From positions 126,547 through 190,546 of the forward strand of contig NZ_LMKO01000012.1 of the NCBI RefSeq assembly GCF_001421705.1: a stretch of DNA of 64,000 nucleotides. The letters are read 5' to 3'. This DNA is from Xylophilus sp. Leaf220. GTDB taxonomy: Bacteria > Pseudomonadota > Gammaproteobacteria > Burkholderiales > Burkholderiaceae_C. The first letter of the stretch is position 1. Every line of letters starts with the position of its first letter. The notes under the pieces are model-generated. The model did no database searches. It was not told the origin of the DNA and saw only the letters and a program-made list of their open reading frames with translations. A program made the position numbers and the translations under genes. Below are positions 41,129 to 57,384 of the stretch, one piece after another.

Positions 41129-42301
41129 CTATTCCTGCAGCGCCCGCAGCGACGCCAGGATCCGCTCCCGGTCCTGGTCGAGCCGCGGCGGCTGGCGCTG
41201 CAGCACGGTGCGGTGGCCGCCGACATGGATCGGGTTGCCGGCGACGGTCAGGTCGCGGCCGCTCTGGGCCTTGACCTGCAGCAGCATGTCGCGGGCCTGG
41301 ACCTGCGGGTCCTGCAGCACCTCGGCCACGTTGTTGTAGGCGCCGGTGGGGATGTTGTTGCGCATCAGCAGGTCCTGCCAGTGGTCGCAGCCGGCCGCGG
41401 CCAGGCGTTCCTCCAGCGCGGCCTTCAGGGCCTCGTGGTGGGTGCAGCGCAAGTGGTTGGTGGCGAAGCGCGGGTCGACCGCCACCGCCGGCAGTTCCAG
41501 CGTGGCGCACAGCCGCTGGAACAGGCCGTCGTTGCCCGCCGCGATCACGAACCAGCCGTCCGCCGCGCGGAACACGTCGAAGGGCGCGATCGACGGGTGG
41601 CGCGAGCCGAGCGGGCCCGGCGCCTTGCCGTCGACCTGCATCCGGGCGATGGCGTTCTCCAGCAGGGCGACCTGGCAGTCGAGCATCGCCACGTCGACCC
41701 GGTCGCCGCGGCCGGTGCGCGCCCGCTGCAGCAGCGCCGCCTGGGTGCCGACCGCCGCGTACAGCCCGGCGCCCAGGTCGCCGATCGAGACGCCCACGCG
41801 CGTAGGGTCGCCGCCGGGATGGCCGGTCAGGCTCATGATGCCGCCCATCGCCTGCACCACCATGTCGTAGGCCGGCCGCCGGCTGTAGGGCCCGGTCTGG
41901 CCGAAGCCCGAGACCGAGGTGAACACCAGCTGCGGGTACCGGGCCTGCAGCGCCTCCCAGCCGTAGCCCAGCTTTTCCATGGTGCCGGGGCGGAAGTTCT
42001 CGACCAGCACGTCGGCCGTCTCCAGGAGGGCTTCGAACACCGCGCGGTCCTCGAGTGCCTTCAGGTCGAGGGCGATCGATTCCTTGTTGCGGTTGACCGA
42101 CATGAAGTAGGCCGAGTCGCCGTCGACGAAGGGGCCGATCTGGCGGGCGTCGTCGCCGCAGCCGGGCTGCTCGACCTTGATCACCCGGGCGCCCAGGTCG
42201 GCCAGCAGCATGGTGCAGTAGGGGCCGGCCAGGACGCGGGTCAGGTCGACGACGGTGTAGCCCTGCAGCGGGCCGGCGGATGGGTGCGTGTGTGGGGTCA
42301 T
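41129..42301 (-). CDS. CaiB/BaiF family CoA transferase
   Basis: A 390-residue class III CoA transferase. Blocks are VVDLTRVLAGPYCTMLLADLGARVIKVEQP, FMSVNRNKESIALDLK and VENFRPGTMEKLGYGW, where the conserved region around YFMSVNRNK precedes the catalytic Asp region ALDLK. It moves CoA from an acyl-CoA donor to a carboxylic acid. It overlaps the Bug receptor stop by 4 bp (42298-42301) and is the last gene of a crotonase-Bug-CoA transferase operon. The receptor probably imports the acid that this enzyme activates. Confidence 0.9.
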   Translation of the reverse strand: MTPHTHPSAGPLQGYTVVDLTRVLAGPYCTMLLADLGARVIKVEQPGCGDDARQIGPFVDGDSAYFMSVNRNKESIALDLKALEDRAVFEALLETADVLVENFRPGTMEKLGYGWEALQARYPQLVFTSVSGFGQTGPYSRRPAYDMVVQAMGGIMSLTGHPGGDPTRVGVSIGDLGAGLYAAVGTQAALLQRARTGRGDRVDVAMLDCQVALLENAIARMQVDGKAPGPLGSRHPSIAPFDVFRAADGWFVIAAGNDGLFQRLCATLELPAVAVDPRFATNHLRCTHHEALKAALEERLAAAGCDHWQDLLMRNNIPTGAYNNVAEVLQDPQVQARDMLLQVKAQSGRDLTVAGNPIHVGGHRTVLQRQPPRLDQDRERILASLRALQE

Positions 42302-43266
42302 TCGAGCGAGGCGCCGGAGCGCACGGTCAGTTCCTTGGATTTCTTGCCTTCGTCGAGCGCCCAGGCGCGGAATTCGGCCAGTGATGCGGAGGGTGCCGAT
42401 TCGTTGCCCGATTTCTCCAGCCGGGCCTTCACCTCGGGATCTTTCAGCGCGGCCACGCTGGCGTCGAACAGCGCCTGGGCCACCTCGGGCGGCACGCCGG
42501 CCGGGGCGAACAGGCCGAACCAGAAGCTGAAATCGTAGCCCTTGACGCCGGCCTCGGCCATGCCGGGCGTGTCGGGGAACAGCGGCGAGCGGGCGGCCGA
42601 GGTGACGGCCAGCACCCGCAGCTTGCCGCCCTGGGCCATCGGCAGCACCGAGGGCGGCGTGCCGAAGGTCAGCTGCACGTCGCCGCTGGCGACGGCCAGC
42701 AGCGAGGGCGCGCCGCCCTTGTAAGGTACGTGCAGCATCTGCACCCCGGCCGCCTGCTCGAACGAGAGCGCCGCCAGGTGGGTGATGACGCCGGTGCCGG
42801 AGGACGAGTAGGTCAGCTTGCCTGGCGCCTTGCGCGCCTCGGCCACCAGCTCCTGCACCGACTGCGTTTTGAAACCCTGGTTCACCGCCAGCAGCATCGG
42901 CGCCGAACTCCAGCGCGAGATCGGGACGAAGCTCCTGGCGCCGTCGTACTTCACGCTCTTGTAGAGCAGCTGGTCGCTGCCGTAGAGGTTGCCGCTGCCG
43001 AGCAGCAGGGTGTAGCCGTCGGGCGCGGCGCGGGCCACGAAATCCGAGCCGATGGTGGTGCCGGCGCCCGGCCGGTTGTCGATCACCACCGGCTGGCCGA
43101 GCAGCTTGCCCATCTTGTCGGTGACGATGCGCGCCACCGTATCGGCCCCGCCGCCCGAGGGAAAGCCGACCACCAGGGTGATCGGCCGGTTGGGATAGCC
43201 CTGCGCGCCGGCGGCGGTGCAGAGGGCGGTCAGCGTGGCGGCGGCGATGCCGTGCGAAAGCTTCAT
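42298..43266 (-). CDS. Bug-family tripartite tricarboxylate transporter receptor 2
   Basis: A 322-residue periplasmic receptor with a Sec signal (MKLSHGIAAATLTALCTAAGAQG). The family sequence YPNRPITLVVGFPSGGGADTVAR, VVIDNRPGAGTTIG and VPYKGGAPSLLAVASGDVQ follows. AGGAGA stands upstream of the ATG. It is the middle gene of a catabolic operon, with a crotonase upstream (36-bp gap) and a CoA transferase downstream (4-bp overlap). The ligand is probably a small carboxylate activated to CoA, though which one is unknown. Confidence 0.92.
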   Translation of the reverse strand: MKLSHGIAAATLTALCTAAGAQGYPNRPITLVVGFPSGGGADTVARIVTDKMGKLLGQPVVIDNRPGAGTTIGSDFVARAAPDGYTLLLGSGNLYGSDQLLYKSVKYDGARSFVPISRWSSAPMLLAVNQGFKTQSVQELVAEARKAPGKLTYSSSGTGVITHLAALSFEQAAGVQMLHVPYKGGAPSLLAVASGDVQLTFGTPPSVLPMAQGGKLRVLAVTSAARSPLFPDTPGMAEAGVKGYDFSFWFGLFAPAGVPPEVAQALFDASVAALKDPEVKARLEKSGNESAPSASLAEFRAWALDEGKKSKELTVRSGASLE

Positions 43267-43302
43267 TCTTTGTCTCCTGTCGTGCGAATCAATGGTGGGC
43301 GG

Positions 43303-44052
43303 CTACCGGCCGGTGAAGACCGGCGTGCGCTTTTCCTTCCAGGCCTGGCCGCCTTCGGCCAGGTCTTGCGAGACCACCGACCGTGCGACGTCGCGGGCGG
43401 CGGCGGCCGGATCGAAGCGGCCCTGGGCGATGCGGTTCAGGTGCTGCTTCATGCCGAGCAGCGGGATCGGCGCCATCGCGCCGAGCGTCGCGGCCAGGCG
43501 CTCCACCTCGTCCGGCAGCGATTCGCGCGGAACCAGGTGGGTGAGGAAACCGCAGTCCAGCATCGCCTGCGCACCGATCTTCTCGGCGGTCAGGAAGAGG
43601 CGCTTGGCGGTGTTGAGGCCCAGCCGGCTCACGTAGCGCTGCATGCCGGTCGGGTAGTAGTGCAGGCCGAGTCGCGCCGCGGGCATGAACATTTCGCCGG
43701 CCTCGCAGCCCAGGCGGAAGTCGCAGGCCAGCACCATGTCGGTGGCCCCGCCGTAGACGCCGCCCTGCAGCGCGGCGATGGTCACCGCGCGGCAGTTCTC
43801 CAGCGCATCGACCATGTCGCCGAAGCCGCTGCCTTCGGTCTGGCTCTGGGCGACCGAGCCGATGTCGAACCCGCTGCAGAAGTGCTTGCCCTCCGACCGC
43901 AGCACCAGCACCAGCACGGCGGGCGTGGCATCGACCGTGGCGAAGTGCCGGCGGAGCTCGGGCAGGTCCTCGGGTGTCAGCTTGTTGGCCATCTCTGGCC
44001 GTCGCAGGGTGATGGTGGCGCGGGAGCCTTCTATTTGCAGCGATGGAAGCAT
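43303..44052 (-). CDS. Enoyl-CoA hydratase/isomerase family protein
   Basis: A 249-residue crotonase-fold enzyme. The oxyanion-hole blocks are EGKHFCSGFDIGS and LQGGVYGGATDMVLACDFRLG. At the usual catalytic Glu positions the pattern is not the classical hydratase pair. It reads FMPAARLGLHYYPTGMQRYVSRLG, so the reaction could be hydration, isomerisation or another crotonase reaction. It is the first gene of the operon with the Bug receptor and CoA transferase, and it is divergent from a GntR regulator that very likely controls it. Confidence 0.86.
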   Translation of the reverse strand: MLPSLQIEGSRATITLRRPEMANKLTPEDLPELRRHFATVDATPAVLVLVLRSEGKHFCSGFDIGSVAQSQTEGSGFGDMVDALENCRAVTIAALQGGVYGGATDMVLACDFRLGCEAGEMFMPAARLGLHYYPTGMQRYVSRLGLNTAKRLFLTAEKIGAQAMLDCGFLTHLVPRESLPDEVERLAATLGAMAPIPLLGMKQHLNRIAQGRFDPAAAARDVARSVVSQDLAEGGQAWKEKRTPVFTGR

Positions 44053-44056
44053 CGGG

Positions 44057-44100
44057 TTGTTCCAAGGTCGTTGATATATCTATAATGCTATTTGATATTT
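44057..44100 (+). promoter_or_regulatory. GntR promoter and candidate operator
   Basis: A promoter TTGTTC-N18-TATAAT (44057-44062 and 44081-44086) drives the GntR gene. Two direct copies of TTGATAT (44071-44077 and 44092-44098) flank the -10 and could be the regulator's binding repeats. The region is the whole divergent spacer between the regulator and the crotonase operon. Confidence 0.5.
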
Positions 44101-44108
44101 AGGTGCCC

Positions 44109-44780
44109 ATGCAATCCGCGCTAACCCTCGAACCCACCAGCCTGCAGGACCGCATCCGCGGCCGGCTAGAGGCCGCCATCCAGTCGGGCGAGCTGGCGCC
44201 GGGCATGGCGATCGACGAGCGTGCGCTGGCGGCGCAGTTCGAGGCCTCGCGCACGCCGGTGCGGGAGGCGCTGCTGCTGCTCAGCGCGCGGGGCCTGGTC
44301 GACATCGTGCCGCGCACCGGCATCTACGTGCGCCAGCTGAAGGCCGAGGAACTGGTCGCGATGATGGAAGCACTGGGTGAGCTGGAGGGCGTGCTGGCCC
44401 GGCTGGCGGCCCGCCGGATCGGCGCCGTCCAGCGCGCGGCGCTGGAGCAGGCCCTGGCCGGCACCGCGGCCTGCGCGCGGGCCGACGACGCGGCCGGCTA
44501 CCAGGAGGCCAACGCGGTGCTGCACGAGGTGATCTACCAGGCCAGCGGCAACCCCTTCATCGTCGAGCAGGCCCGGGCGGTGCGGATGCGCATCGGGGCC
44601 TACCGCGGCAGGCTGTTCGAGCGGCCGGGCCGGCTGGCCGATTCGCAGCGGGAGCACGAGCGGGTGGTCGCCGCCATCCTGCCCGGTCGGGCCGACGAGG
44701 CGGCCGATGCGATGCGCGACCACATCTCCCTGGGCGGCAAGGTGTTCGCCGACCTGGTGCTGTCGAATACCCGCCCGTAG
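44109..44780 (+). CDS. GntR family regulator (FCD/FadR subfamily)
   Basis: A 223-residue regulator. The N-terminal winged helix includes LQDRIRGRLEAAIQSGELAPGMAIDERALA and the recognition part SRTPVREALLLLSARGLV. The C-terminal all-helical FCD domain has the conserved His/Asp metal-ligand pattern (LHEVIYQASGN, HERVVAAI, DHISLG). It is divergent from the crotonase-Bug-CoA transferase operon and should respond to the acid or acyl-CoA of that pathway. I use the ATG at 44109, with AGG 5 nt upstream. A GTG at 44103 is possible. Confidence 0.88.
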   Translation: MQSALTLEPTSLQDRIRGRLEAAIQSGELAPGMAIDERALAAQFEASRTPVREALLLLSARGLVDIVPRTGIYVRQLKAEELVAMMEALGELEGVLARLAARRIGAVQRAALEQALAGTAACARADDAAGYQEANAVLHEVIYQASGNPFIVEQARAVRMRIGAYRGRLFERPGRLADSQREHERVVAAILPGRADEAADAMRDHISLGGKVFADLVLSNTRP

Positions 44781-44897: not shown

Positions 44898-47063
44898 TCA
44901 GTACACGACCACCTTGCCGGTCGCCCGTGGGCTGAAGCAGTCGTTGTAGAAGTACTCGCCCGGCTTGTCGAAGGTGTGCCGTGCCGATTCGCCCGGGGCC
45001 AGCCGGAAGTTGAACGCGCCTTCGAAGAACTGCGTCGCGCAGTGCACGCCGGTGTTGCCGACCGGGTTGCGGAAGGTCACGGTGGTGTTCACCGGTACCC
45101 GCATGAAGGTCGGCGTCATCGCGTTCACCGCGCCCGACTCGGCCGTGCCCGGCGCGTTGGCGGCGGTCTGCACCCGACCCAGGAACACGGTGTTGGGCGT
45201 CGGCAGCGCGGCGCCCTCGACCGCGTTGCCCGATACCGGCCGGCGCACCAGCGGCGGGATCGGCGCCGCGGCCTGCGCCACCGTGCCGCCCACCTTGAAG
45301 GCCCACAGGTAGTCGCCGCGCGGGGCGTCGCTGTAGGGTATCGAGGTGCCGCCGGCGTAGACCGCCAGGTACTGCTCGCCGTCGACCTGGTAGGTGACCG
45401 GGCTGGCGCTGATCGAGGCACCGGTCTGGAAGCGCCAGAGCTCGTTGCCGTTGTCGGCGTCCATGCCCAGCAGGTTGCCGTCGGGCTGGCCGATGAAGAG
45501 CAGATTGGAGCCGGTGGTCAGGATGCCGTTGCCGTGCGCCAGCGAATAGGGCATCTGCTTCTTCCAGCGGACCAGGTTGGTGGCGGGATCGACCGCGATC
45601 ACCGCGCCGGTGACGTAGGAGCCGGGGGGCCGCAGGCCGTTGCTTGCCTCGCTCAGCGAGTGGGCGGCGCCCACGTAGCCCAGTCCGGTGTAGACGAGGC
45701 CCGTCTTGCGGCTGAAAGACTGGTGGTTCCAGTTGGCGCCGCCGCCGTGGCCGGGCATGGTGAGGATCGGCTCGTCCCAGTGCGGGTCGAACAGGCAGCC
45801 GGTCTTGTAGTTGGGCACCGCCCGGTTCGGGTCGCCCGGCACCGCGGTGCTCAGGGGCTGCTGCGACACGCACAGTTCGGTGAAGCCGCCCTGGCGCGGG
45901 TAGGGCTGGGTCGGCCAGGTGGACTGGCGGGCATCCTGCTTCACCGGCCGCTCGTCGATACCCAGCGGCGCGCTGCCGTCGGCCCGGTCGAGGATGTAGT
46001 ACATGCCGGTCTTGCTGCCGTAGATCACCACCTTGCGGTCGCGGCCCTCGATCTTCACGTCGGCCAGCACCGGCGACATCACGTTGTCCATGTCCCAGAT
46101 GTCGTGGTGGACCGACTGGAAATGCCACTTGTAGGCGCCGGTGGTCAGGTCCAGCGCCACGATGGAATTGGAGAACAGGTTGAGCCCCGGCCGCTTGGAG
46201 CCGTCCTGGGACGAGCCGCCGCGCACGTTGCCGAAGGTCCAGTAGACGGTGTTGAGCTCCGGGTCGACCGCCGGGTGGATCCACGGCGTGGCGCCGGTGC
46301 GGTTGGCCTCCTCGGCACCGCCCCAGGTCTCGTAGCCCGGCTCGCCCTTGCGCGGAATGCCCCAGAAGTGGCTCAGCACGTTGCCGTTGGTGGCGTCTGC
46401 CGAGAACGCCGCGCCGCGGTTGCCGTCGTTGGTGCCGATGTGCAGCTTGCGGTTGTGGTAGACGATCGCCACCTTCTGCACCGCACCGAGGTAGGCGGCA
46501 TCGGCGGTATCGGAGGGGTACTGCTTGATCCAGGCGACCTCGCCGGTGTCCTTCTTCAGCGCCACCAGCCGGTTGCCGTTGGCCACGGTGTAGACCAGGC
46601 CCAGGTCCTTGGCCACGGCCACGCCGCGGCGGGTGATGACGCCGTAGGGCGTGGTCCATTTCCACTTGGTGGCGCCGGTCTTGCCGTCGACCGCGATCAC
46701 GTTGCCGAGCGCGGATTCGATGAACAGAACGCCGTCGACCGCCACCGTCGTGCTCTGGTTGACGCCGGTGTTGAGGCCGCCCTCGATGCGGTTGACCCAG
46801 GCGCCGCCCACCTGGCGGACGTTGTCCCGGGTGATCTTCGACAGGCTGGAATAGTTCTGGTTGCCCAGGTTGCCGCCCACTTTGGGGAAATCCTGGTCGC
46901 CCGGGGTGCAGCAGTTCTGCAGTTCGGCCGCCAGGCCCGCGGCGTTCGACGGCGTGTCGGCCACGCCGCCGTTGCCGTCGCTGCCGCCGCAGCCGTAGAG
47001 CAGCAGGGCGGCCGCGACCGCCGTGGCCGACAGGGCGGCGACCGGGTTCTTGAGTCGTTTCAT
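44898..47063 (-). CDS. PQQ-type quinoprotein dehydrogenase, lipoprotein, with C-terminal cupredoxin-like domain
   Basis: A 721-residue secreted protein with a lipobox at LLLYGC. The beta-propeller carries the tryptophan-docking repeats AVDGKTGATKWKW, ALKKDTGEVAWIKQY, ALDLTTGAYKWHF and GMDADNGNELWRF. The catalytic-site block HHDIWDMD typical of PQQ dehydrogenases is present. There is no CxxCH heme motif. The last 75 residues (MRVPVNTTVTFRNPVGNTGVHC through GEYFYNDCFSPRATGKVVV) look like a cupredoxin, although the usual His after the second Cys is replaced. This domain may take electrons in place of cytochrome c. It is co-directional with thuA (35-bp gap), and an IclR-type operator lies upstream of that gene. 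The substrate is unknown. Confidence 0.85.
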   Translation of the reverse strand: MKRLKNPVAALSATAVAAALLLYGCGGSDGNGGVADTPSNAAGLAAELQNCCTPGDQDFPKVGGNLGNQNYSSLSKITRDNVRQVGGAWVNRIEGGLNTGVNQSTTVAVDGVLFIESALGNVIAVDGKTGATKWKWTTPYGVITRRGVAVAKDLGLVYTVANGNRLVALKKDTGEVAWIKQYPSDTADAAYLGAVQKVAIVYHNRKLHIGTNDGNRGAAFSADATNGNVLSHFWGIPRKGEPGYETWGGAEEANRTGATPWIHPAVDPELNTVYWTFGNVRGGSSQDGSKRPGLNLFSNSIVALDLTTGAYKWHFQSVHHDIWDMDNVMSPVLADVKIEGRDRKVVIYGSKTGMYYILDRADGSAPLGIDERPVKQDARQSTWPTQPYPRQGGFTELCVSQQPLSTAVPGDPNRAVPNYKTGCLFDPHWDEPILTMPGHGGGANWNHQSFSRKTGLVYTGLGYVGAAHSLSEASNGLRPPGSYVTGAVIAVDPATNLVRWKKQMPYSLAHGNGILTTGSNLLFIGQPDGNLLGMDADNGNELWRFQTGASISASPVTYQVDGEQYLAVYAGGTSIPYSDAPRGDYLWAFKVGGTVAQAAAPIPPLVRRPVSGNAVEGAALPTPNTVFLGRVQTAANAPGTAESGAVNAMTPTFMRVPVNTTVTFRNPVGNTGVHCATQFFEGAFNFRLAPGESARHTFDKPGEYFYNDCFSPRATGKVVVY

Positions 47064-47098
47064 TCTTGTCTCCTTCGCGTTGAGATCGGGGGCCTGGA

Positions 47099-48193
47099 TC
47101 AGCGGGGCAGGGCGCCGGCCGCGTCGGAGGCGCCGCCGCTGCCGGCCGTGCCGGTACCCGCGGTGCTGCCGGTGCCGGTTCCGGTGCCGGGCGTGGTCGT
47201 GACCGGAGCCGCCGCGGGGGCCGGCGTGGTGCAGAAAGGCGTCAGGCCCATGACCGACTTCACGCCTTGCACCACCAGCCGCTGGAACGCCGCGGCGCCG
47301 GGGCCGCTGGAGTTGGCCTGGAACGAATGGGTGTTGTGGCCCAGCGTGGTGAGCCAGGCGCGGCCGCCGTCGTAGTACTGGCACCACGCCACCGGATGGA
47401 AGTCCTTGTGGCCGGGGTGCGGCGCCGAGGTCAGCGGATTGAGCGTGGAGGTGTCGACCTTCGCCAGGAACTTGACGTTGGTCGGGAACGGCGTCAGGTT
47501 GTACCACTCGTCCTGGAAGCCGAAGCGGCCCGGCACGCCCTGGGTGGAGGGGTCGTCGGCCATCACCTCCACGTCGCCGTTGCGGTTGGGCGCGTGGTTG
47601 TAGAAGTTGGCGTTGCCCAGAAGGCCTTCGTAGTAGGGCCAGTTGTATTCGGCGCCGAACGCGTTGTGCAGCCCCACGAAGCCGCCGCCGCGGCGCATGT
47701 AGTTGCGCAGCGCGGTGCGGGCCGCGTCGTTGCCGGTGGCGACCGCCTCGTTCCAGAGCGTGTCGCGGTTGGAACTGGCGAACACCACTGCCTTGTAGTT
47801 GTTGATGCGGTTGGCGATGACGGTGACGTCTTCGGTCCAGTCGGCGGTGATGCCCGCCTCCTCGAACATCCGCTTCAATCCGGCCTGCATGATGTTGTCG
47901 GCGTTCATCGTCGGGTTGAGTCCCGCCGCCATCGGCGTGCCCAGGTTGGCATGGCGGGGGCCTGCGGTGCGCGAATAGATCAGCACCCGGTTGGGCGTGG
48001 TGGCGAAGGCGCCCCAGTCGTTGTAGCAGGAGGGGTCGATCCCGCGGCAGACGTTGTAGTAGGGGTCGACGCTGGCCACGGAGGTGCGGGGTGTGTCGGC
48101 CGGGCCGGAATCGCCGCCGCCGCAGGCCACCAGCCCACCCAGGGTCGCGGAGGCCATGGCGGCGAGCCGCAGGTGTCGCATCGAAGTTTTCAA
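47099..48193 (-). CDS. ThuA-like domain lipoprotein
   Basis: A 364-residue secreted protein. The signal LAAMASATLGGLVACGGG has a lipobox cysteine near residue 24. The ThuA-like glutamine-amidotransferase fold is readable: RVLIYSRTAGPRHAN, GGGFVGLHNAFGAEYNW, and PVAWCQYYDGGRAWLTTLGHNTHSF. The C-terminal 45 residues are a Gly/Thr/Pro linker. I take the TTG at 48193, because AGGAG lies 6-7 nt upstream; the ATG at 48181 has poor spacing. ThuA-like proteins occur beside sugar oxidoreductases, but their chemistry is unclear. It is the first gene of the operon with the quinoprotein. Confidence 0.8.
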   Translation of the reverse strand: MKTSMRHLRLAAMASATLGGLVACGGGDSGPADTPRTSVASVDPYYNVCRGIDPSCYNDWGAFATTPNRVLIYSRTAGPRHANLGTPMAAGLNPTMNADNIMQAGLKRMFEEAGITADWTEDVTVIANRINNYKAVVFASSNRDTLWNEAVATGNDAARTALRNYMRRGGGFVGLHNAFGAEYNWPYYEGLLGNANFYNHAPNRNGDVEVMADDPSTQGVPGRFGFQDEWYNLTPFPTNVKFLAKVDTSTLNPLTSAPHPGHKDFHPVAWCQYYDGGRAWLTTLGHNTHSFQANSSGPGAAAFQRLVVQGVKSVMGLTPFCTTPAPAAAPVTTTPGTGTGTGSTAGTGTAGSGGASDAAGALPR

Positions 48194-48252
48194 GTGTGTC
48201 TCCTGTTGGTTTTGCATACGGCAGCGGGCCGTGCGGCATCCGCTGCCGCCAC

Positions 48253-48281
48253 ATGGTAGCCAATATGGAAAGAATTTCCAA
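48253..48281 (-). promoter_or_regulatory. Promoter of the thuA-quinoprotein operon with IclR-type operator
   Basis: On the minus strand: -35 TTGGAA (48281-48276), a 17-nt spacer, and -10 TACCAT (48258-48253). The operator TGGAAA-N3-TTTCCA occupies 48266-48280 and begins one base inside the -35. An identical design stands before the TRAP operon. A weaker half-site TGGAA follows at 48284. Confidence 0.7.
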
Positions 48282-48420
48282 TATGGAATTTCTTTCTTAT
48301 TGTTGCAGGACCGTGCGACCCTGTCGGGAGGCGTCCAAACTTCAACTGCAGGGCGACACGATGGAAGCCCTTTACGGACATTGCGGCGGCGCCGTACCGG
48401 GGTGGCCGCCCCGAGTCGTA

Positions 48421-49203
48421 TCAGGCGCGCTTGCGGAACAGCGCCGAGGCGCCGCTGGCGCGGGACACCTGCGCTGCGATGTCCAGGATCGCCGGGCCGA
48501 GTTCGGCCATGCGGCGCTCCGACAGCCGCACCGAAGGGCCGGCGATCGTCACCACGCCGATCGCATGGCCGGTGGAGCCGAACACCGCGGCCGCCATCGC
48601 CGTCATGCCGGGCGAGAACACTTCGTTGATCGTGCTGTAGCCGCGCTCCCGCGCGGCGGTCACGTACGCCATCACCGCCCCGATCGAGGTCGGCGCGTTG
48701 GGGCCGTAGTCCTTGGGGTCGCACAGGCCCTTGCGCGCCACCATCGCCAGCGCCTCGTCCTCGGGCATCGTCGCCAGCCAGGCATGGCCTGCCGCGCTGC
48801 AGGGCAGGGCGACCGACAGGCCCATGTCCGGGTCGTAGCGCAGCCCGTGGCGCGCGCCCTGCGCCTTGGCCACGAAGATCAGGTCGTCGCCGTCGACCAC
48901 CGCCAGCCGCACCAGTTCGCCCGAGGTCGCGGCCAGTTGTTCCAGCAGAGGTTGGGCCAGGTCGACGATGCCGGTCCGGCTCAGGTAGGAGAGCCCGATC
49001 GACACCAGCTTGGTCGTGAGGCGGTAGTGCCCGTCGTGCGCGTCCTGGCGCGCGTAGCCGTAGCGGATCAGCTCGACCAGCAGCCGGTGGGCGGCCGACA
49101 AGGGGATCTCCAGGTCGCCCGCCAGGGTCGACAGGGCCACGCCCGCGGGATGCTCCGCCAGGTATTCCAGGATGTTGAGACTGCGCTCCAGGGCTCCGCT
49201 CAT
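48421..49203 (-). CDS. IclR family regulator
   Basis: A 260-residue regulator. The N-terminal winged helix reads SGALERSLNILEYLAEHPAGVALSTLAGDLEIPLSAAHRLLVEL, and the C-terminal ligand domain includes GLRYDPDMGLSVALPCSAAGHAWLA and TSIGAVMAYVTAARERGYS. It starts with ATG at 49203. It lies between two operons whose promoters carry the same palindrome, TGGAAA-N3-TTTCCA. That palindrome fits IclR-family sites in general form, so I infer that it binds both. The right-hand site (49276-49290) is 73 bp upstream of its own start and could also serve autoregulation. Confidence 0.92.
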   Translation of the reverse strand: MSGALERSLNILEYLAEHPAGVALSTLAGDLEIPLSAAHRLLVELIRYGYARQDAHDGHYRLTTKLVSIGLSYLSRTGIVDLAQPLLEQLAATSGELVRLAVVDGDDLIFVAKAQGARHGLRYDPDMGLSVALPCSAAGHAWLATMPEDEALAMVARKGLCDPKDYGPNAPTSIGAVMAYVTAARERGYSTINEVFSPGMTAMAAAVFGSTGHAIGVVTIAGPSVRLSERRMAELGPAILDIAAQVSRASGASALFRKRA

Positions 49204-49274
49204 GCTGCTGCTCCCGCCGGGGCGAAAGCCCGGCATTCCCGGGACTCTACCAACTTCGGCAACTGAATTCCAGT

Positions 49275-49303
49275 TTGGAAAAACTTTCCATAATGCGTAT
49301 GAT
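49275..49303 (+). promoter_or_regulatory. Promoter of the TRAP-dehydroquinase operon with IclR-type operator
   Basis: -35 TTGGAA (49275-49280), a 17-nt spacer, and -10 TATGAT (49298-49303). The operator TGGAAA-N3-TTTCCA lies at 49276-49290, one base inside the -35, exactly as upstream of thuA. The predicted transcript start is about 40 bp before the dctP-type start codon. Confidence 0.75.
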
Positions 49304-49350
49304 GAAGCTGCTCGCATTCGACGAGCGTCACACACCATGGGAGACAAACC

Positions 49351-50349
49351 GTGAGAATTGCCCGTACCCTGGCCGCATTCGGCCTCTGCCTCGTCGCTGC
49401 AGCCGCCACCGCGCAGCAAGACCGCACCATCCGCTTCGGCCACCTGAACAACGCCGACCATCCGGTGAGCTTCGGCGTCAAGCGCTTCTCCGAACTGCTG
49501 GCCGCCAAGAGCGGCGGCAAGATGAAGGTGCAGGAATTCCCTGCCAACCAGCTCGGCAACGAGATGCAGCAGCAGTCCGCCCTGCAGGGCGGCGTGCAGC
49601 AGATGTCGGCGCCGGCCACCACCTCGCTCGCCGGGATCGTCAAGGAATTCGGCCTGGTCGACTTCCCGTTCGCGGTCGCCGATTTCGCGCAGGCCGATGC
49701 GCTGCTCGACGGCCCGCTGGGCCAGGCGCTGATCGCCAAGCTGCCGGAGAAGGGCCTGGTCGCGTTGGGTTACTGGGACCTGGGATTTCGCAACGTCACC
49801 AACAGCCGCGGCCCGATCAAACGCGCCGAGGACCTGGAGGGCCTGAAGATCCGGGTCATTCCCAACCCGGTGTTCCTGGAGACCTTCAAGGCCTTCAAGG
49901 CCAACCCGGTGCCGATGCCCTTCGCCGAGCTGTACGGCGCGCTCGAATCGCGCGCGGTCGACGGCCAGGAAAACCCGTTCTCGGTGATCCTGTCGAACAA
50001 GTTCTACGAGGTGCAGAAATACGTCAGCGCCACCAACCACGTCTATGCGGCCAACATCGTGCTGGTCAGCAAGAAGTTCTGGGACCAGCTGACGCCGGTC
50101 GAGCAGAAATGGATGCGCGAAGCCGCCGACGAGGCCCGCGGCTACCAGCGCCAGGTGAGCCGCGCCGCGGCGCAGAAATCGGTCGGCGACCTGCAGGCCA
50201 AGGGCGCCCAGTTCAATGAGGTCGCGCCCGCCGAACAGGCCCGCATGCGCCAGATCGCCAAGCCGGTGGTCGACCGCTTCGCGGCGCAGTACGACCCGGC
50301 CATCGTCAAGCTCTACAACGACGAGCTGGCCCGCATCCGCAAACCCTGA
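49351..50349 (+). CDS. TRAP transporter substrate-binding protein (DctP-like)
   Basis: A 332-residue periplasmic receptor with signal peptide (RIARTLAAFGLCLVAAAATAQ). Family blocks are IRFGHLNNADHPVSFGVKRFSELL, QMSAPATTSLAGIVKEF and the conserved Arg region DLEGLKIRVIPNPVFLETF, which normally binds the ligand carboxylate. It starts with GTG at 49351; GGGAG lies about 8 nt upstream. It is the first gene of an operon with a type II dehydroquinase and the two TRAP permeases, so the ligand is likely a quinate/shikimate-pathway acid such as dehydroquinate. This is inferred from context. Confidence 0.92.
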   Translation: MRIARTLAAFGLCLVAAAATAQQDRTIRFGHLNNADHPVSFGVKRFSELLAAKSGGKMKVQEFPANQLGNEMQQQSALQGGVQQMSAPATTSLAGIVKEFGLVDFPFAVADFAQADALLDGPLGQALIAKLPEKGLVALGYWDLGFRNVTNSRGPIKRAEDLEGLKIRVIPNPVFLETFKAFKANPVPMPFAELYGALESRAVDGQENPFSVILSNKFYEVQKYVSATNHVYAANIVLVSKKFWDQLTPVEQKWMREAADEARGYQRQVSRAAAQKSVGDLQAKGAQFNEVAPAEQARMRQIAKPVVDRFAAQYDPAIVKLYNDELARIRKP

Positions 50350-50365
50350 GCCGGAACCGAACGCC

Positions 50366-50821
50366 ATGAAGATCCTCGTCCTCCACGGACCTAACCTCAA
50401 CCTGTTCGGCCGCCGTGAGCCGCACATCTACGGCACCACCACGCTGGCCGAGATCGACGCGCGCATCGCCGCGCTCGCCGCCGAACTGGTCGCCGAAGTC
50501 GACACGCTGCAGTCCAACCACGAGGGTGCGCTGATCGATTTCCTGCACCTGCACATGGACCGGGCGCAGGGTGCGCTGGTCAATCCCGCGGGCTTGACCC
50601 AGCACGGCGTGCCGCTGCACGATGCGATCAAGGCGATGCCGTTCCCGGTGATCGAGGTGCACATGTCCAACATCGCGGCCCGCGAGACCTGGCGGGCGCA
50701 TTCGATCATCTCGCCGGCGGTGCGGGGCACGGTGCAGGGCCTGGGCCCGCAGTCGTACCTGGCGGCGTTCCGCGCGCTGGTCGAGATCGTGCGCGACGCC
50801 GGCCGCAAGGCGGCGGCCTAG
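50366..50821 (+). CDS. aroQ: Type II 3-dehydroquinate dehydratase
   Basis: A 151-residue enzyme that interconverts 3-dehydroquinate and 3-dehydroshikimate. The motifs GPNLNLFGRREPHIYGTTT (with the flexible-lid Arg and catalytic Tyr), QSNHEGALIDFLH, NPAGLTQHG and IEVHMSNIAARE (catalytic His) are complete. It lies between the receptor and permease genes of a TRAP operon, which suggests a catabolic role, feeding an imported cyclitol acid to protocatechuate, more than the housekeeping shikimate pathway. It starts 16 bp after the receptor stop. Confidence 0.95.
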   Translation: MKILVLHGPNLNLFGRREPHIYGTTTLAEIDARIAALAAELVAEVDTLQSNHEGALIDFLHLHMDRAQGALVNPAGLTQHGVPLHDAIKAMPFPVIEVHMSNIAARETWRAHSIISPAVRGTVQGLGPQSYLAAFRALVEIVRDAGRKAAA

Positions 50822-50932
50822 CGAACGGGCGTATCAGGTCGGGCGCCAGGCGCGCCGCCGCCCCGGCCCCTGCGGCATTCCGGACGGCGGCGCATGCGGC
50901 GCCCGCCGATCACAAGAAAAAAGGAGACATTC

Positions 50933-51514
50933 ATGAGCCGATGGATCGACGGCGCCTGCCGTGCCCTGGAAGCGGTCATCGCCGCGTGCCTGGCGATCAT
51001 GGTGGTGCTGGTGTTCGGCAACGTGGTGCTGCGCTACGGATTCAACTCGGGGCTGACGATGTCCGAGGAGGTCTCCCGCTGGCTCTTCATCTGGATCACC
51101 TTCCTGGGCGCGATCGTCGCGCTGAAGGAGCATTCGCACCTGGGGGTCGACATGCTGGTGGTGAAGTTGCCGCCGGCCGGCCGCAAGGCATGCTTCGCCA
51201 TCACCCACCTGCTGATGCTCTACGTGCTGTGGCTCCTGTTCCAGGGCAGCGTGGCGCAAGCGAAGATCAACTGGGACGTGCAGGCGCCGGTCACCGGCGC
51301 GTCGATGGCCATCGTCTATGCCGCGGGCATCGTCTTCGCGGTCTTCGGCGCGTTCCTGCTGGCATTGGACCTGTTGAAGCTGCTGACCGGCCGGCTGGCC
51401 GACGACCAGCTCGTCGCCATCCAGGAATCCGAGGAGGCGGCCGCGCTGGCCGAGGTGCTGGGCTCGCATCCTCCGGTCTCGCCTGCCGCCACCGCACGGG
51501 GAGACCGCGCATGA
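50933..51514 (+). CDS. TRAP transporter small permease (DctQ-like)
   Basis: A 193-residue inner-membrane protein with four membrane segments. The second segment is preceded by the family motif NVVLRYGFNSGLTMSEEVSRWLFIWITFLG. AGGAGA lies just before the ATG at 50933. The C-terminal 30 residues are soluble and Ala/Glu-rich. Its TGA overlaps the ATG of the large permease (51511-51514). It is the essential small membrane partner of DctM. Confidence 0.92.
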   Translation: MSRWIDGACRALEAVIAACLAIMVVLVFGNVVLRYGFNSGLTMSEEVSRWLFIWITFLGAIVALKEHSHLGVDMLVVKLPPAGRKACFAITHLLMLYVLWLLFQGSVAQAKINWDVQAPVTGASMAIVYAAGIVFAVFGAFLLALDLLKLLTGRLADDQLVAIQESEEAAALAEVLGSHPPVSPAATARGDRA

Positions 51515-52821
51515 CGATCGCCGTCTTCCTCGGATCGCTGCTGCTGGCCATGGCCATCGGCATGCCGATCGCCTTCGCGCTGCTGGCCAGCGGGGTGGCC
51601 CTGATGTGGCAGCTGGACCTGTTCGATCCGCAGATCCTCACCCAGAACCTGATCGGCGGGGCCGACAGCTTCCCGCTGCTGGCGGTGCCCTTCTTCATGC
51701 TGGCCGGCGAGATCATGAACGCCGGCGGCCTGTCGCGCCGGATCGTCGGGCTGGCGCTGGCGCTGGTCGGGCATGTGCGGGGCGGCCTGGGCTATGTGAC
51801 CATCATGGCCGGCTGCCTGCTGTCGGCCCTGTCGGGGTCGGCCGTGGCCGATGCCGCCGCGCTCACCGCGCTGCTGCTGCCGATGATGACCGCGGCCGGC
51901 CACGACCGCGCCCGCGCCGGCGGCCTGATCGCCGCCACCGGCATCATCGGCCCGGTGATCCCGCCCAGCATCGGGCTGGTGATCTTCGGGGTGGCGGCCA
52001 ACGTCTCGATCTCGAAGCTTTTCCTGGCAGCGGTGGCGCCGGGCCTGATGATCGGCGGCGCGCTGTGGATCACCTGGGCCTGGATGGTGCGCCACGACCG
52101 GATCGACGCGCCGCCGCGCAAGTCGCTGCGCGAGATAGGCCGGGCCGCCCGCGAGGCCGGCTGGGCGCTGATGCTGCCGGTCATCATCCTGGTAGGCCTG
52201 CGCATGGGCGTCTTCACCCCGACCGAGGCAGCGGTGGTCGCCGCGGTGTACGCCTTCTGCGTGGCGGCCTTCGTCTACCGCGAGATCGGGGTACGAGAAC
52301 TGTATGGGGTGTTCGTGAGCGCGGCCAAGACCAGCGCGGTGGTCATGTTCCTGATCGCCGCGGCCATGGTGAGCGCCTGGCTGATCACGGTGGCCGACCT
52401 GCCGTCGAAGGTGGTCGAGCTGTTGCGGCCCTTCATGGACAACAAGATCCTGCTGATGCTGGCGATCATGGTGCTGGTGATGGCCGTGGGCACCGCGATG
52501 GACATGACGCCCACCATCCTGATCCTGACGCCGGTGCTGATGCCGGTGGTGAAGGCAGCCGGCATCGACCCGGTCTACTTCGGGGTGATGTTCATCATCA
52601 ACAACTCGATCGGGCTGATCACCCCGCCGGTAGGGGTGGTGCTCAACGTCGTCGCCGGGGTCGGCCGCATGCGGATGGACGAGGTGACCCGCGGCGTGCT
52701 GCCCTTCATGCTGGTCGAGTTCGCGGTGATGTTCCTGATGACGGTGTTCCCCGCACTCGTCACCGTGCCCGCCTGCTGGCTGGGCGGCGACTGCACGGTG
52801 CAGGCCGCGCCGCGCCGGTGA
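51511..52821 (+). CDS. TRAP transporter large permease (DctM-like)
   Basis: A 436-residue membrane protein of the DctM/IT superfamily with about 12 membrane segments. Hallmarks are LLAVPFFMLAGEIMNAGGLSRRIV, the GPVIPPSIGLVIFG hairpin and the second-half hairpin NSIGLITPPVGVVLNVVAGV. It overlaps the small permease by 4 bp (ATGA). It is strikingly similar to the partial permease at the right edge of the window. It forms a Na+-driven high-affinity importer with the two preceding components. Confidence 0.94.
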   Translation: MTIAVFLGSLLLAMAIGMPIAFALLASGVALMWQLDLFDPQILTQNLIGGADSFPLLAVPFFMLAGEIMNAGGLSRRIVGLALALVGHVRGGLGYVTIMAGCLLSALSGSAVADAAALTALLLPMMTAAGHDRARAGGLIAATGIIGPVIPPSIGLVIFGVAANVSISKLFLAAVAPGLMIGGALWITWAWMVRHDRIDAPPRKSLREIGRAAREAGWALMLPVIILVGLRMGVFTPTEAAVVAAVYAFCVAAFVYREIGVRELYGVFVSAAKTSAVVMFLIAAAMVSAWLITVADLPSKVVELLRPFMDNKILLMLAIMVLVMAVGTAMDMTPTILILTPVLMPVVKAAGIDPVYFGVMFIINNSIGLITPPVGVVLNVVAGVGRMRMDEVTRGVLPFMLVEFAVMFLMTVFPALVTVPACWLGGDCTVQAAPRR

Positions 52822-53001: not shown

Positions 53002-56000
53002 TCAGGCGAGGGTCATGAGGCTCGCGTTGCCGCCGGCGGCCGCCGTGTTCACGCTGGTCGAGCGCTCGACCAGCAAGCGCTCCAGCGGCAGCTCGCGTTC
53101 TCCGGGGCGGCAGGCCACGACGCCGATGATGGAGCCAGGCCGCTCCGCCAGCCGGCGGGTCCAGTCGAGCAGTGCCGGCGCATCCCCGTGGTGGAGGACC
53201 GCGTCGAAGTCCTGCTCCAGCAGAAGCGCCTCGGCCGCGAGGTCGATCTGCGCCTGCACGTCGGCCGGCAAGCGGGCCCGCAGCGCGGATGCCGCCGCCG
53301 GCCACAGGGCACGGCTGCCCACGGCCAGCACCGCGGCGAGTTGCACCAGCCGGTCGGCCGTGTCGTCCGCCAGGCACAGTACCCGCGAACGGGCCGCCAG
53401 CGAATAGAAGTTGCGTTCCCCGGTGGGACCCTGCAGTGCCAGGGACGCGCCGCAGCGGGACAGGGCGGCGAAGCGGCTGCACAGGGCCGCGACCGGCGCA
53501 TGCCCTTCGGCTGCCAGCCAGCGCTGCAGCGACGCCAGGGCGGGCCGCGCCGGCGTCGGCGGCGCTACGACGGCGGCATCGCCTTCGATTCCGTTCGGCG
53601 GCCGCATCAGCGCGAGCGCCCGCGCCTGCAGATCCTCCGGCCGCGAGGCCAGCAGGCGGTAGAGGTACAGCGGGCCGCCGGCCTTGGGCCCGGTGCCCGA
53701 CAGGCCTTCCCCGCCGAAGGGTTGCACGCCGACGACGGCGCCGACCATGTTGCGGTTGACGTAGAGGTTGCCGGCGTGCGCCGCACCCACCACCCGGGCG
53801 ATGGTCTCGTCGATCCGGGTGTGCAGGCCCAGCGTGAGGCCGTAGCCGGTGGCGGCGATCTGCTCCAGCAGCAAGCCCAGGTCCTCGCGGCGCCAGCGCA
53901 CGAAGTGCAGCACCGGCCCGAAGACCTCGCGCTGCAGTTCGCCGATGTGGTCCAGCACGATCAGGGTCGGTACGACGAAGGTGCCTGCGGTCGACGCGTC
54001 CTGGCCGGCGGCGGCGCGGTACACGGCGCGGCCCCGGGCCGCCATCGCCGCGATGTGCCGCTCGATGCCGTCGCGGGCCTCGGCGTCGATTACCGGACCC
54101 ACGTCGGTCGACAGCACCGCCGGATCGCCCATGCGCAGTTCGGCCATCGCGCCGTGCAGCATCTGCAGGATGCGGTCGGCCGCGTCTTCCTGCACGCAGA
54201 GCACCCGCAAGGCCGAGCAGCGCTGGCCTGCGCTGTCGAACGCCGAGGCCAGCACATCGGCCACCACCTGCTCGGCCAGCGCGGACGAATCGACGATCAT
54301 CGCGTTCTGGCCGCCGGTCTCGGCGATCAGGGGCACCGCGCGCCCGTCGGCGGTGAGCCGGCCGGCCAGTGTGTTCTGCAGCAGCCGCGCCACTTCGGTC
54401 GAACCGGTGAAGAGCACGCCCTGCACCCGCGGATCGGCGACCAGCCGGGCGCCTACCGTCGCGCCGTCGCCGGGCAGCAGTTGCAGCGCCGCACGCGGAA
54501 TGCCCGCCTGCCACAGCCGGCGCACCGCTTGCGCAGCCACGAGCGGCGTCTGCTCGGCAGGCTTGGCCAGCACCGTGTTGCCGGCCGCCAGCGCGGCCGC
54601 GACCTGCCCGACGAAGATGGCCAGCGGAAAATTCCAGGGGCTGATGCAGACCACCGGCCCCAGGGGTTTGTGCGTCGCCACCGCGAAGTCCCGGCGCACC
54701 TGCGCCGCATAGAAGCGCAGGAAATCGACGGCTTCGCGCACCTCGGCGACCGCATTGGAGGCGGTCTTGCCGGCTTCGCGCGCCAGCAGGCCCAGCAGTT
54801 CGGGCATGTCGGCCTCGAGCGCGGCGGCGGCGCGCTCGAGCGCATCGGCCCGCTCGGCCGCAGGCGTGGCGGCCCAGGCGTCGGCCTGGTCGGCGGCGGC
54901 GGCGACGGCCGCGTCCACATCCTCCGCGGACGATGCCTGCACATGGCCGACGACGTCGCCGTGGCGCGCCGGGTTGCGCACTGCGGCCGGCGCCGACGGC
55001 GCCACCGGTGCGCAGTTCATGAGCGGCCCGGCCGATGCCTGCCGGGCGTGTGCCGACTGCATCGACCGGGCGAGCGCCGCGAGCGTGCGGTCGTCGGCCA
55101 GGTCCAGCCCGACCGCATTGGCCCGCAGCGTGCCGTAGAGCGCCGCCGGCAGCGGGATGGACGGGTGCGGCAGGCCCGCGGGGCCTTGCGTGCAGGCGAC
55201 CCGGTCGACCGCGGCGACCGGGTCCTCGACCAGCTCCGCCAGCGGGATGGCCGTGTCGGCGATGCGGTTGACGAACGAGGTGTTGGCACCGTTTTCCAGC
55301 AGCCGGCGCACCAGGTAGGCGAGCAGGGTCTCGTGGGTGCCGACCGGGGCGTAGATCCGGCAGGGCCGGCCCAGCCCGCCCTGCGACGGATGGCCGACCA
55401 CCTGCTCGTACAGCGGCTCGCCCATGCCGTGCAGGCACTGGAACTCGTACTGTCCGGGCGTGTAGCCGGCAGGGCCCGCCATTGCGTGGATCGCGGCGAC
55501 CGTGTGGGCGTTGTGCGTGGCGAACTGCGGGTAGACCGCGTCGGGCGCCTCCAGCAGCTTGCGGGCGCAGGCCAGGTAGGAGACGTCGGTGTGCACCTTG
55601 CGGGTGTAGACCGGGTAGTCGGACTGGCCGTCGACCTGGGCGCGCTTGATCTCGCTGTCCCAGTAGGCGCCCTTCACCAGCCGCACCATCAGCCGGTGGC
55701 GGCTGCGCCGCGCCATGTCCACCACGCAGTCGACCACCTGCGGGCAGAGCTTCTGGTAGGCCTGGACGACGAAACCGATGCCGTCCCAGCCGGCCAGTTC
55801 GGGCGCGAAGCAAAGGCGCTCCAGCAGGTCCAGGGACAACTCCAGCCGGTCGGATTCCTCGGCGTCGATGTTCAGTCCGATGTCATGGCGGCGGGCCTGG
55901 ACGGCGAGCGCGTGCAGCACCGGGTACAGCTCCTGCATCACCCGGTCGCGCTGGGCACGGCCGTAGCGGGGGTGCAGGGCGGAGAGCTTGATCGAGATGC

Positions 56001-56772: not shown

Positions 56773-56844
56773 GGCAGCCGGTGATAGTGGATCGCTGGAT
56801 GATCGGCTGGAAATCGGTATTTAAAACTTCGTTATCGCAGCGTT

Positions 56845-56865
56845 GAGCCGAATAAAATTCGGCTC
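56845..56865 (+). promoter_or_regulatory. Palindrome abutting the start of the Lrp-type regulator
   Basis: A perfect inverted repeat GAGCCGAAT-N3-ATTCGGCTC directly before the ATG at 56866, occupying the place of a ribosome-binding site. It may be an operator for autoregulation of the divergent pair, or an RNA hairpin that limits translation. No Shine-Dalgarno sequence is visible elsewhere. Confidence 0.5.
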
Positions 56866-57384
56866 ATGGCCCGCCGAACCGACAGTGCCGACCGCCCGCA
56901 GGAAGCCGCCGGCCTCGACCGCCTGGACCTGCGCATCCTCGCGGCGCTGCAGGCCGACGGCCGCATCGCCAACCTGAAGCTGGCCGAATCGATCGGCCTG
57001 TCGCCGACCGCGGTGCTGGCGCGGGTGCAGCGGCTCACCCGCGACGGCTACATCCTCGGCTACGAGGCGCGGCTCAACCCGCTCAGGCTCGATGCCGGCA
57101 TGCTGGTGTTCGTCGAGGTGCTGCTGGACCGCACCACGCCCAACGTGTTCGACCAGTTCAAGGCGGCGGTGCAGGTGCAGCCTGCGATCATGGAGTGCCA
57201 CATGGTGGCCGGCGGCTTCGACTACCTGCTCAAGACCCGCAGCGCCGACATGAACGCCTACCGGGCGTTCGCCGGCGCGGTGCTCTGGCAACTGCCCGGG
57301 GTGCGGGAGACACGCACCTATGCGGTGATGGAGGAGGTGAAGAACTCGACGCACCTGCAGTTGCCGGGGGTGGCGCGCCGCTGA
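56866..57384 (+). CDS. Lrp/AsnC family regulator, probable proline-utilisation regulator
   Basis: A 172-residue regulator. The N-terminal helix-turn-helix reads LDRLDLRILAALQADGRIANLKLAESIGLSPTAVLARVQRLTRDGYI, and the C-terminal RAM domain includes VMECHMVAGGFDYLLKTRSADM. It is 93 bp from and divergent to putA. In alphaproteobacteria the same arrangement encodes PutR, which activates putA with proline. I infer the same role here, consistent with the missing DNA-binding domain of this PutA. Confidence 0.9.
   Translation: MARRTDSADRPQEAAGLDRLDLRILAALQADGRIANLKLAESIGLSPTAVLARVQRLTRDGYILGYEARLNPLRLDAGMLVFVEVLLDRTTPNVFDQFKAAVQVQPAIMECHMVAGGFDYLLKTRSADMNAYRAFAGAVLWQLPGVRETRTYAVMEEVKNSTHLQLPGVARR

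Follow-up and report, generated by a model that had tools for sequence, protein, structure and literature searches.

A putative IclR regulon joins an exported quinoprotein and a ThuA-domain protein to a TRAP transporter with an embedded AroQ-like dehydratase in Xylophilus sp. Leaf220

We analyzed a 64,000-nt stretch of DNA from Xylophilus sp. Leaf220 (contig NZ_LMKO01000012.1, positions 126,547–190,546 of the forward strand; hereafter, the window) and studied the portion at 44,898–52,821. This portion contains an operon for a ThuA-domain protein and an exported quinoprotein, an operon for a tripartite ATP-independent periplasmic (TRAP) transporter and a member of the type II dehydroquinase (AroQ) family, and a gene for an IclR-family regulator. 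Comparison with related genomes strongly supports a shared IclR regulon that would cover both operons; sequence comparison argues for the shared operators, the linkage of the genes, their domain content, and the retention of catalytic residues. We consider it fairly probable that this regulon serves oxidation outside the cytoplasm, uptake by the TRAP transporter, and cytoplasmic dehydration of a dehydroquinate-like acid.

The genes were identified from their translations and from scans with family models (Pfam and NCBIfam):

44,898–47,063, minus strand: quinoprotein, a propeller of the pyrroloquinoline quinone (PQQ) type with a C-terminal cupredoxin-fold domain (about residues 606–721); Pfam PF01011, 2.7e-78, and predicted fold
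47,099–48,193, minus strand: thuA, ThuA-domain protein with a TTG start; Pfam PF06283, 7.9e-41
48,421–49,203, minus strand: iclR, IclR-family regulator; PF09339 and PF01614
49,351–50,349, plus strand: dctP, TRAP solute-binding protein; PF03480, 1.8e-88
50,366–50,821, plus strand: aroQ-like, type II dehydroquinase family, with TQHG replacing THTS; PF01220, 5.3e-49
50,933–51,514, plus strand: dctQ, small permease subunit of the TRAP transporter; PF04290, 3.9e-27
51,511–52,821, plus strand: dctM, large permease subunit of the TRAP transporter; PF06808, 4.2e-122

These identities agree with a preliminary description of the same DNA. The regulator has both the HTH_IclR and the IclR_C domains (Pfam scan), and the TRAP subunit set (DctP, DctQ, and DctM) is complete according to Pfam. 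The N-terminus of the ThuA protein is of the exported type; judged by eye, it has a lipobox-like sequence (LVAC), as does the N-terminus of the quinoprotein (LYGC).

The promoters of the two operons contain the following elements (the boxes are palindromic and have no strand):

48,266–48,280: main operator palindrome of thuA, TGGAAA-N3-TTTCCA; overlaps the -35 TTGGAA (48,281–48,276)
49,276–49,290: main operator palindrome of dctP; overlaps the -35 TTGGAA (49,275–49,280) and is also 73 nt upstream of iclR
48,253–48,258, minus strand: -10-like TACCAT of the thuA promoter, read from the sequence; its spacing of 7–8 nt from the palindrome is conserved
49,298–49,303, plus strand: -10-like TATGAT of the dctP promoter, from the sequence and a consensus scan; the same conserved 7–8 nt spacing from the palindrome
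48,284–48,298: degenerate second box of thuA, 18 bp upstream; three mismatches, counted by eye
49,258–49,272: degenerate second box of dctP, 18 bp upstream; four mismatches, counted by eye

The two main palindromes are exactly where the preliminary description placed them, and so are the promoter elements: at each site, the palindrome begins one base within TTGGAA, a hexamer that is 17 nt from TATGAT (dctP) or, on the minus strand, from TACCAT (thuA). A promoter consensus scan reports just the dctP promoter, as the thuA promoter has 8 of the 12 consensus bases and the threshold of the scan is 9. Within the window, these two sites are the only matches to the palindrome with up to one mismatch (0.01 expected). 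A genome-wide scan, which had been proposed as a check, found that the motif is rare: there are three exact copies in the 4.48 Mb of the Leaf220 genome (28 contigs), and the third is on another contig, inside a reading frame (L003, 1501–1515). Given their rarity and their location at these promoters, we rejected chance palindromes.

In a genome from the same genus (G232, 5.8 Mb), the exact motif occurs just twice, upstream of thuA and between iclR and dctP, even though the thuA-quinoprotein operon is about 2.1 Mb from the iclR-dctP-aroQ-dctQ-dctM operon. Within 20 kb around this thuA, no gene is over 40% identical to the iclR of the window. To look more broadly, we used 399 genomes of the family, in which we identified orthologs of the quinoprotein (at least 60% identity) and of the AroQ-like protein (E ≤ 1e-55). 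The union of the genomes that are positive for either comprises 42 genomes, and 25 of them contain a total of 30 exact sites (versus 3 for the pattern read backwards). Nineteen of these sites are between iclR and dctP or at dctP, 4 are at thuA, and 1 is at another iclR.

The operator is also conserved when mismatches are allowed. For the dctP genes of TRAP-AroQ operons (n = 25), there are 13 perfect sites, 8 with a single mismatch, 1 with two, and 3 with three, so 22 of 25 have an operator within two mismatches. (This count leaves out three rows that lack AroQ, from G116 and G174, and the dctP genes at contig edges in G122 and G215.) Where thuA heads its unit, 13 of 16 genes have a site within one mismatch; this includes G253, for which the gene start used was truncated, and leaves out thuA genes behind dctM (G183 and G078), second copies, and pieces. 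None of these excluded thuA genes, copies, or pieces has an operator site. Where the quinoprotein gene is apart from thuA and beside a second iclR (G069, G253, G068, and G376), all four have a one-mismatch site. A broader scan covered 43 sequences (797,945 bases), which were selected as mostly carrying these genes, and found 49 sites with at most one mismatch. Forty-two of these flank dctP, thuA, or the quinoprotein gene; of the other seven, two are by iclR and a truncated dctP at a contig edge, four are by iclR only, and one precedes a type II secretion-like operon. Operons of this kind lie between the TRAP-AroQ and thuA genes in the g69 and g68 genomes (L050, L052, L118, and L131–L133); the GspE, GspF, and secretin-like identities come from a scan of L050 only.

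The pattern TAnnnT occurs 7 or 8 nt past the palindrome at 28 of 53 sites (with up to two mismatches), versus 9 for all other offsets from 0 to 17 together. Conserved placement of the -10 relative to the palindrome fits with repression. Furthermore, many relatives have a weaker second box, GGAA-N5-TTTCCA, 18 bp away in the upstream flank (37 sites, which are not independent counts because the sequences are related). Judged from these flanks, the operator is of the tandem kind, with a second box that the preliminary description missed and that is degenerate in the window. IclR-family regulators have tandem sites 18–22 nt apart in 94 groups (PMC8222616, partial text), and the 18-bp spacing falls within this range. 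Similarly, the E. coli IclR box TGGAAATNATTTCCA, as given in the same partial text, is equal to TGGAAA-N3-TTTCCA. Because both the box and the tandem spacing are as known in the family, the regulatory part appears to be ordinary IclR biology on an unusual set of genes: E. coli IclR has other targets, whereas here they would be the quinoprotein, ThuA, the TRAP transporter, and the AroQ-like protein.

We also considered whether each site has its own IclR paralog, in which case there would be no single regulon. Boxes are alike across the IclR family (PMC8222616, partial text), the quinoprotein gene adjoins a second iclR in some genomes, and one exact site is at another iclR. However, apart from one intragenic site, these promoters hold the only exact motifs in G232 and Leaf220, and we think that separate regulators are very improbable. 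Overall, footprinting across the relatives supports the proposal of one IclR for both operons, as both promoters carry the motif in several genera, even where they are 2.1 Mb apart; the site is rare and is kept in relatives, rather than being common and unconserved. As a side observation, a regulator that is 84% identical to the IclR of the window is encoded among unrelated genes in G068 (L036, 9517–10371), with a one-mismatch palindrome upstream.

The genes of the two operons also go together across genomes. Among the 399 genomes, the quinoprotein is found in 22 (plus weaker split matches in G387), the AroQ-like protein in 39, and both in 19, which has a naive hypergeometric probability of 6.5e-19 (uncorrected for kinship). 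In 18 of these 19 genomes, the two genes are within 20 kb of each other. The 22 genomes with the quinoprotein span 11 genera, 8 of which have both genes; among six genomes from the same genus, both genes are present in two and absent from four. The TRAP-AroQ genes of G183 and G078 continue into thuA and the quinoprotein gene on a single strand. Co-occurrence and synteny thus support a functional link between the quinoprotein, the TRAP transporter, and the AroQ-like protein, as had been proposed. Known DctPQM transporters have the same three subunits, whereas here a dehydratase gene is embedded among them. No description of this cluster was found in the literature that we searched, in which coverage of subscription papers is poor.

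Other genes accompany these clusters in relatives. Alongside thuA and the quinoprotein gene are genes for an ELWxxDGT repeat protein and for several proteins of the PEP-CTERM type (L120, 5862–11617, and equivalents). The ELWxxDGT repeat protein is frequent in these clusters (15 clustered members) and had no match in the Leaf220 genome in a search without a positive control.

The quinoprotein does not fall into a curated class. It scores 255.7 bits with TIGR03075 (PQQ alcohol dehydrogenase; cut-off 480.05), 185.9 bits with TIGR03074 (membrane quinate/glucose dehydrogenase, the QuiA type; cut-off 832.65), and 280.8 bits with TIGR04528 (acido-empty-quinoprotein, the best NCBIfam match by E-value; cut-off 650). 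The second of these scores bears out the view that this is not the usual membrane-anchored QuiA. The predicted fold and the alignment indicate a propeller with a catalytic Asp, and in an alignment with 1kb0 and 6zcv, 19 orthologs share this Asp, along with an Asn and a Lys, without exception. The full-length model has a mean predicted local distance difference test (pLDDT) score of 65.5, and the area of the active site is modeled weakly, so our claims about residues rest on the alignments. Type I and type II PQQ alcohol dehydrogenases (1kb0, 1yiq, 1kv9, and 6zcv) have the propeller fold and the catalytic Asp, Asn, and Lys in common with this protein, which differs in lacking the vicinal cysteines, in the replacement of the Glu ligand, and in having a C-terminal cupredoxin fold instead of a cytochrome domain. 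That domain (the last 116 residues; window 44,901–45,248) is modeled with a mean pLDDT of 81.6 and matches 9cck_A (Z = 14.3, root-mean-square deviation 2.1, 97 residues). Copper cupredoxins bind the metal with two His, one Cys, and one Met. In the orthologs His674, Cys675, and Cys709 are invariant, and the expected second His and the Met are Pro and Lys (judged by eye without superposition). Because two of the usual copper ligands seem to be replaced, electron transfer through this domain is doubtful.

In four relatives, the cluster itself points to PQQ. In G122 and G215, pqqC is near the quinoprotein gene; pqqB and pqqE were identified in the cluster of G122, and G215 has an 86%-identical PqqB. 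The clusters of G320 (L121, 10826–12979) and G253 (L118, 5725–7821) contain homologs of the PQQ importer PqqU, whose uptake activity has been described (PMC12124388, partial text). Both homologs are under the NCBI cut-off, and the one from G320 matches solved YncD with E = 2.2e-223. PqqC was not found in G320 or G253 with the profile model that we used across the 399 genomes. Overall, 94 of the 399 genomes have a PqqC above the cut-off, as do 11 of the 22 with the quinoprotein (P = 0.005, uncorrected). Because of the pqq genes or PqqU homologs in these clusters, we favor a working enzyme: judged from its relatives, the quinoprotein is probably active with PQQ.

Several results count against the regulon and pathway that we propose. 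Seventeen of the 42 genomes lack an exact site, 6 of the 30 exact sites are away from these genes, and thuA lacks a good site in G122, G215, and G201. Furthermore, 20 of the 39 genomes with the AroQ-like protein have no match to the quinoprotein, and 3 of the 22 with the quinoprotein (G116, G174, and G201) have no match to the AroQ-like protein. As for the quinoprotein, it is under the cut-off of every curated model, Asn or Ser takes the place of the metal-ligand Glu, and there is no vicinal cysteine pair (relative to 1kb0 and 6zcv). Finally, PqqC was not found in the Leaf220 genome with a model that works elsewhere in the family, and the strain would then depend on uptake of PQQ. These last results, along with TIGR04528 being the best (if far below cut-off) match, would also be expected if the quinoprotein resembled the empty quinoproteins, binding without catalysis and oxidizing nothing. 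We lower this reading to improbable because of the pqq and PqqU genes in the clusters of relatives; the invariant Asp, Asn, and Lys argue against it as well.

The AroQ-like protein is a relative of type II 3-dehydroquinate dehydratase with a probably altered substrate pocket. It scores 154.5 bits with the equivalog model TIGR01088 (cut-off 169.85) and passes the subfamily model NF003807 (175.8 bits versus a cut-off of 130). We aligned 27 of the 39 proteins and found that nine scored active-site residues, including the catalytic Arg19, Tyr24, Asn75, Asp88, and His101, are kept in all 27. Where the canonical AroQ of the strain (on contig C24) reads His81-Thr82-Ser83, all 27 have Gln-His-Gly. In type II dehydroquinase, His81 and Arg112 contact the C5 hydroxyl of the substrate (PMC6011038, partial text). 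Because this contact is replaced by Gln, a changed environment around C5 is the simplest expectation, and activity on 3-dehydroquinate itself is possible. Two other AroQ-like proteins, which adjoin ATP-binding cassette (ABC) or major facilitator superfamily (MFS) transporter genes and related iclR genes (L053, 4113–10444; L059, 5191–8101), have Phe at position 81 and Tyr at position 112; in L053, an exact site is 18 bp from one with a single mismatch.

The preliminary description had proposed, with quinate oxidation as the precedent, that the quinoprotein makes a keto acid outside the cell, which is imported by the TRAP transporter and dehydrated by AroQ. Spelled out for quinate or shikimate, the quinoprotein would oxidize either one outside, the TRAP transporter would import 3-dehydroquinate, AroQ would convert it to 3-dehydroshikimate, and a dehydroshikimate dehydratase would yield protocatechuate. 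The linkage behind this proposal has stood, while the change of His81 to Gln in 27 of 27 proteins and the TIGR01088 score below cut-off weigh against its conversion of quinate to dehydroquinate. PQQ enzymes are known to oxidize quinate in the periplasm (PMC4213383 and PMC9171043, partial texts), and the operon does encode an AroQ-family enzyme with its catalytic residues. In Acinetobacter, QuiA, QuiB, and QuiC tie PQQ-dependent oxidation outside the cytoplasm to a dehydroquinase (PMC4213383, partial text), as would be the case here. The differences are that QuiA is of the membrane type, that dehydration here would be cytoplasmic and would follow TRAP uptake, and that position 81 is changed.

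However, the Leaf220 genome has a separate, canonical-looking quinate/shikimate cluster on contig C24 (L139, 5706–11338), so use of quinate or shikimate does not require the operons in the window. This cluster encodes a PcaR-like IclR regulator, two AroE-like proteins, a QuiC-half dehydratase, an MFS protein like shikimate transporters, and the canonical AroQ (THTS), whose gene is near the end of the contig; most of these proteins are under equivalog cut-offs. The two type II dehydroquinase genes are the only ones in the genome, and a search with positive controls found no type I dehydroquinase in it. The QuiC-half dehydratase can also be read in favor of the quinate route, as 3-dehydroshikimate from the operons in the window could feed into it. 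So can a split QuiC-like dehydroshikimate dehydratase, encoded as a pair close to the quinoprotein gene and a second iclR in G069, G253, and G376, which are from one genus. Upstream of the operon with this pair, which is led by a short-chain dehydrogenase/reductase gene, we found no operator in the three genomes scanned (the best sites have four or five mismatches). We rejected the dehydroshikimate dehydratase as a member of the regulon, given adjacency in one genus and best sites at this distance.

Other points go against the quinate route too. In G116 and G174, the quinoprotein gene adjoins a similar dctP-dctQ-dctM set that lacks this AroQ, and in G201 a dctM is about 7.5 kb away. In the Leaf220 genome, PqqC was not found, and no enzyme was assigned to cleavage of the protocatechuate ring: one frame matches LigB, but it looks YgiD-like, and we do not claim it as a protocatechuate dioxygenase. 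Because of the change at position 81 and the separate cluster, we lower the quinate route as the sole reading: it is tentative and somewhat unlikely, and quinate itself is a possible but not favored substrate. At the AroQ-less quinoprotein loci of G174 and G201 (L129 and L130), genes for an aldehyde dehydrogenase and a CoA-transferase III are nearby, and G201 also has citryl-CoA-lyase-like and thiamine pyrophosphate-enzyme genes.

A system for glycosides or sugar acids is another alternative. ThuA belongs to the trehalose ThuAB system, which presumably acts on 3-keto sugars; the quinoprotein would form a keto-glycoside, ThuA would cleave it, the TRAP transporter would import the sugar acid, and the AroQ-like enzyme would act on a hydroxy-keto sugar acid. 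The solved sequences closest to DctP are 4p47 and 7bbr, the latter a sugar-acid binder. Also, DctM and DctQ resemble the diketogulonate transporter YiaMN in curated models, although below cut-off. On the other hand, relatedness among TRAP proteins does not fix the ligand, the AroQ-like protein keeps the residues that hold a cyclic substrate except at position 81, and no paper that settles the reaction of ThuA was found in the literature searched. We consider this system unlikely. More speculatively, the cluster could be an extracytoplasmic PQQ route, under one IclR, for quinate derivatives that are altered or substituted at C5, such as chlorogenate-type acylquinates or quinate glycosides. The conjugate would be oxidized outside, ThuA would process the keto conjugate, and the TRAP transporter would deliver a dehydroquinate-like acid to an AroQ paralog with a retuned pocket. 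We rate this route as decidedly doubtful.

The mechanism that we favor is broader. The IclR-family repressor (48,421–49,203) would bind tandem boxes at two promoters, in each case overlapping the -35: the promoter of thuA and the quinoprotein gene and the promoter of dctP-aroQ-dctQ-dctM. Without its effector, it would block both operons, and with the effector both would be induced. The exported quinoprotein, with PQQ, would oxidize a polyhydroxy acid, or a conjugate of one, at a secondary alcohol; the exported ThuA protein would probably act on the oxidized intermediate; and the TRAP transporter would import the resulting acid. The AroQ-like enzyme would then dehydrate this acid as type II dehydroquinase does, but with a substrate unlike 3-dehydroquinate in the region of C5. 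The order of oxidation, uptake, and dehydration is likely. What we infer is that IclR represses instead of activating, as well as which way the reactions run, what ThuA does, and what kind of effector and substrate are involved.

At 41,129–44,780 in the window, adjoining the quinoprotein gene, a GntR regulator is divergent from a set with an enoyl-CoA hydratase (ECH), a TctC receptor, and a CoA-transferase III, and comparable gene types are beside the TRAP-AroQ genes in G068 (L132, 7835–11840). We rejected the CoA-transferase, ECH, and TctC genes (41,129–43,992) as a downstream pathway because their relatives near other loci are just 34–47% identical and, for ECH, none was above the filter. 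Downstream of dctM (53,002–57,384) are a trifunctional PutA and a divergent Lrp-like regulator.

If this reading is correct, then the Burkholderiaceae have a recurring module in which one operator governs an exported quinoprotein together with a ThuA protein, a TRAP importer, and a paralog of dehydroquinase. The members of this AroQ subfamily are routinely annotated as 3-dehydroquinate dehydratase, which may be incorrect, and a single residue position lends itself to a direct test. ThuA would also gain a pathway that can be tested, and so would a family of quinoproteins that the curated models do not cover.

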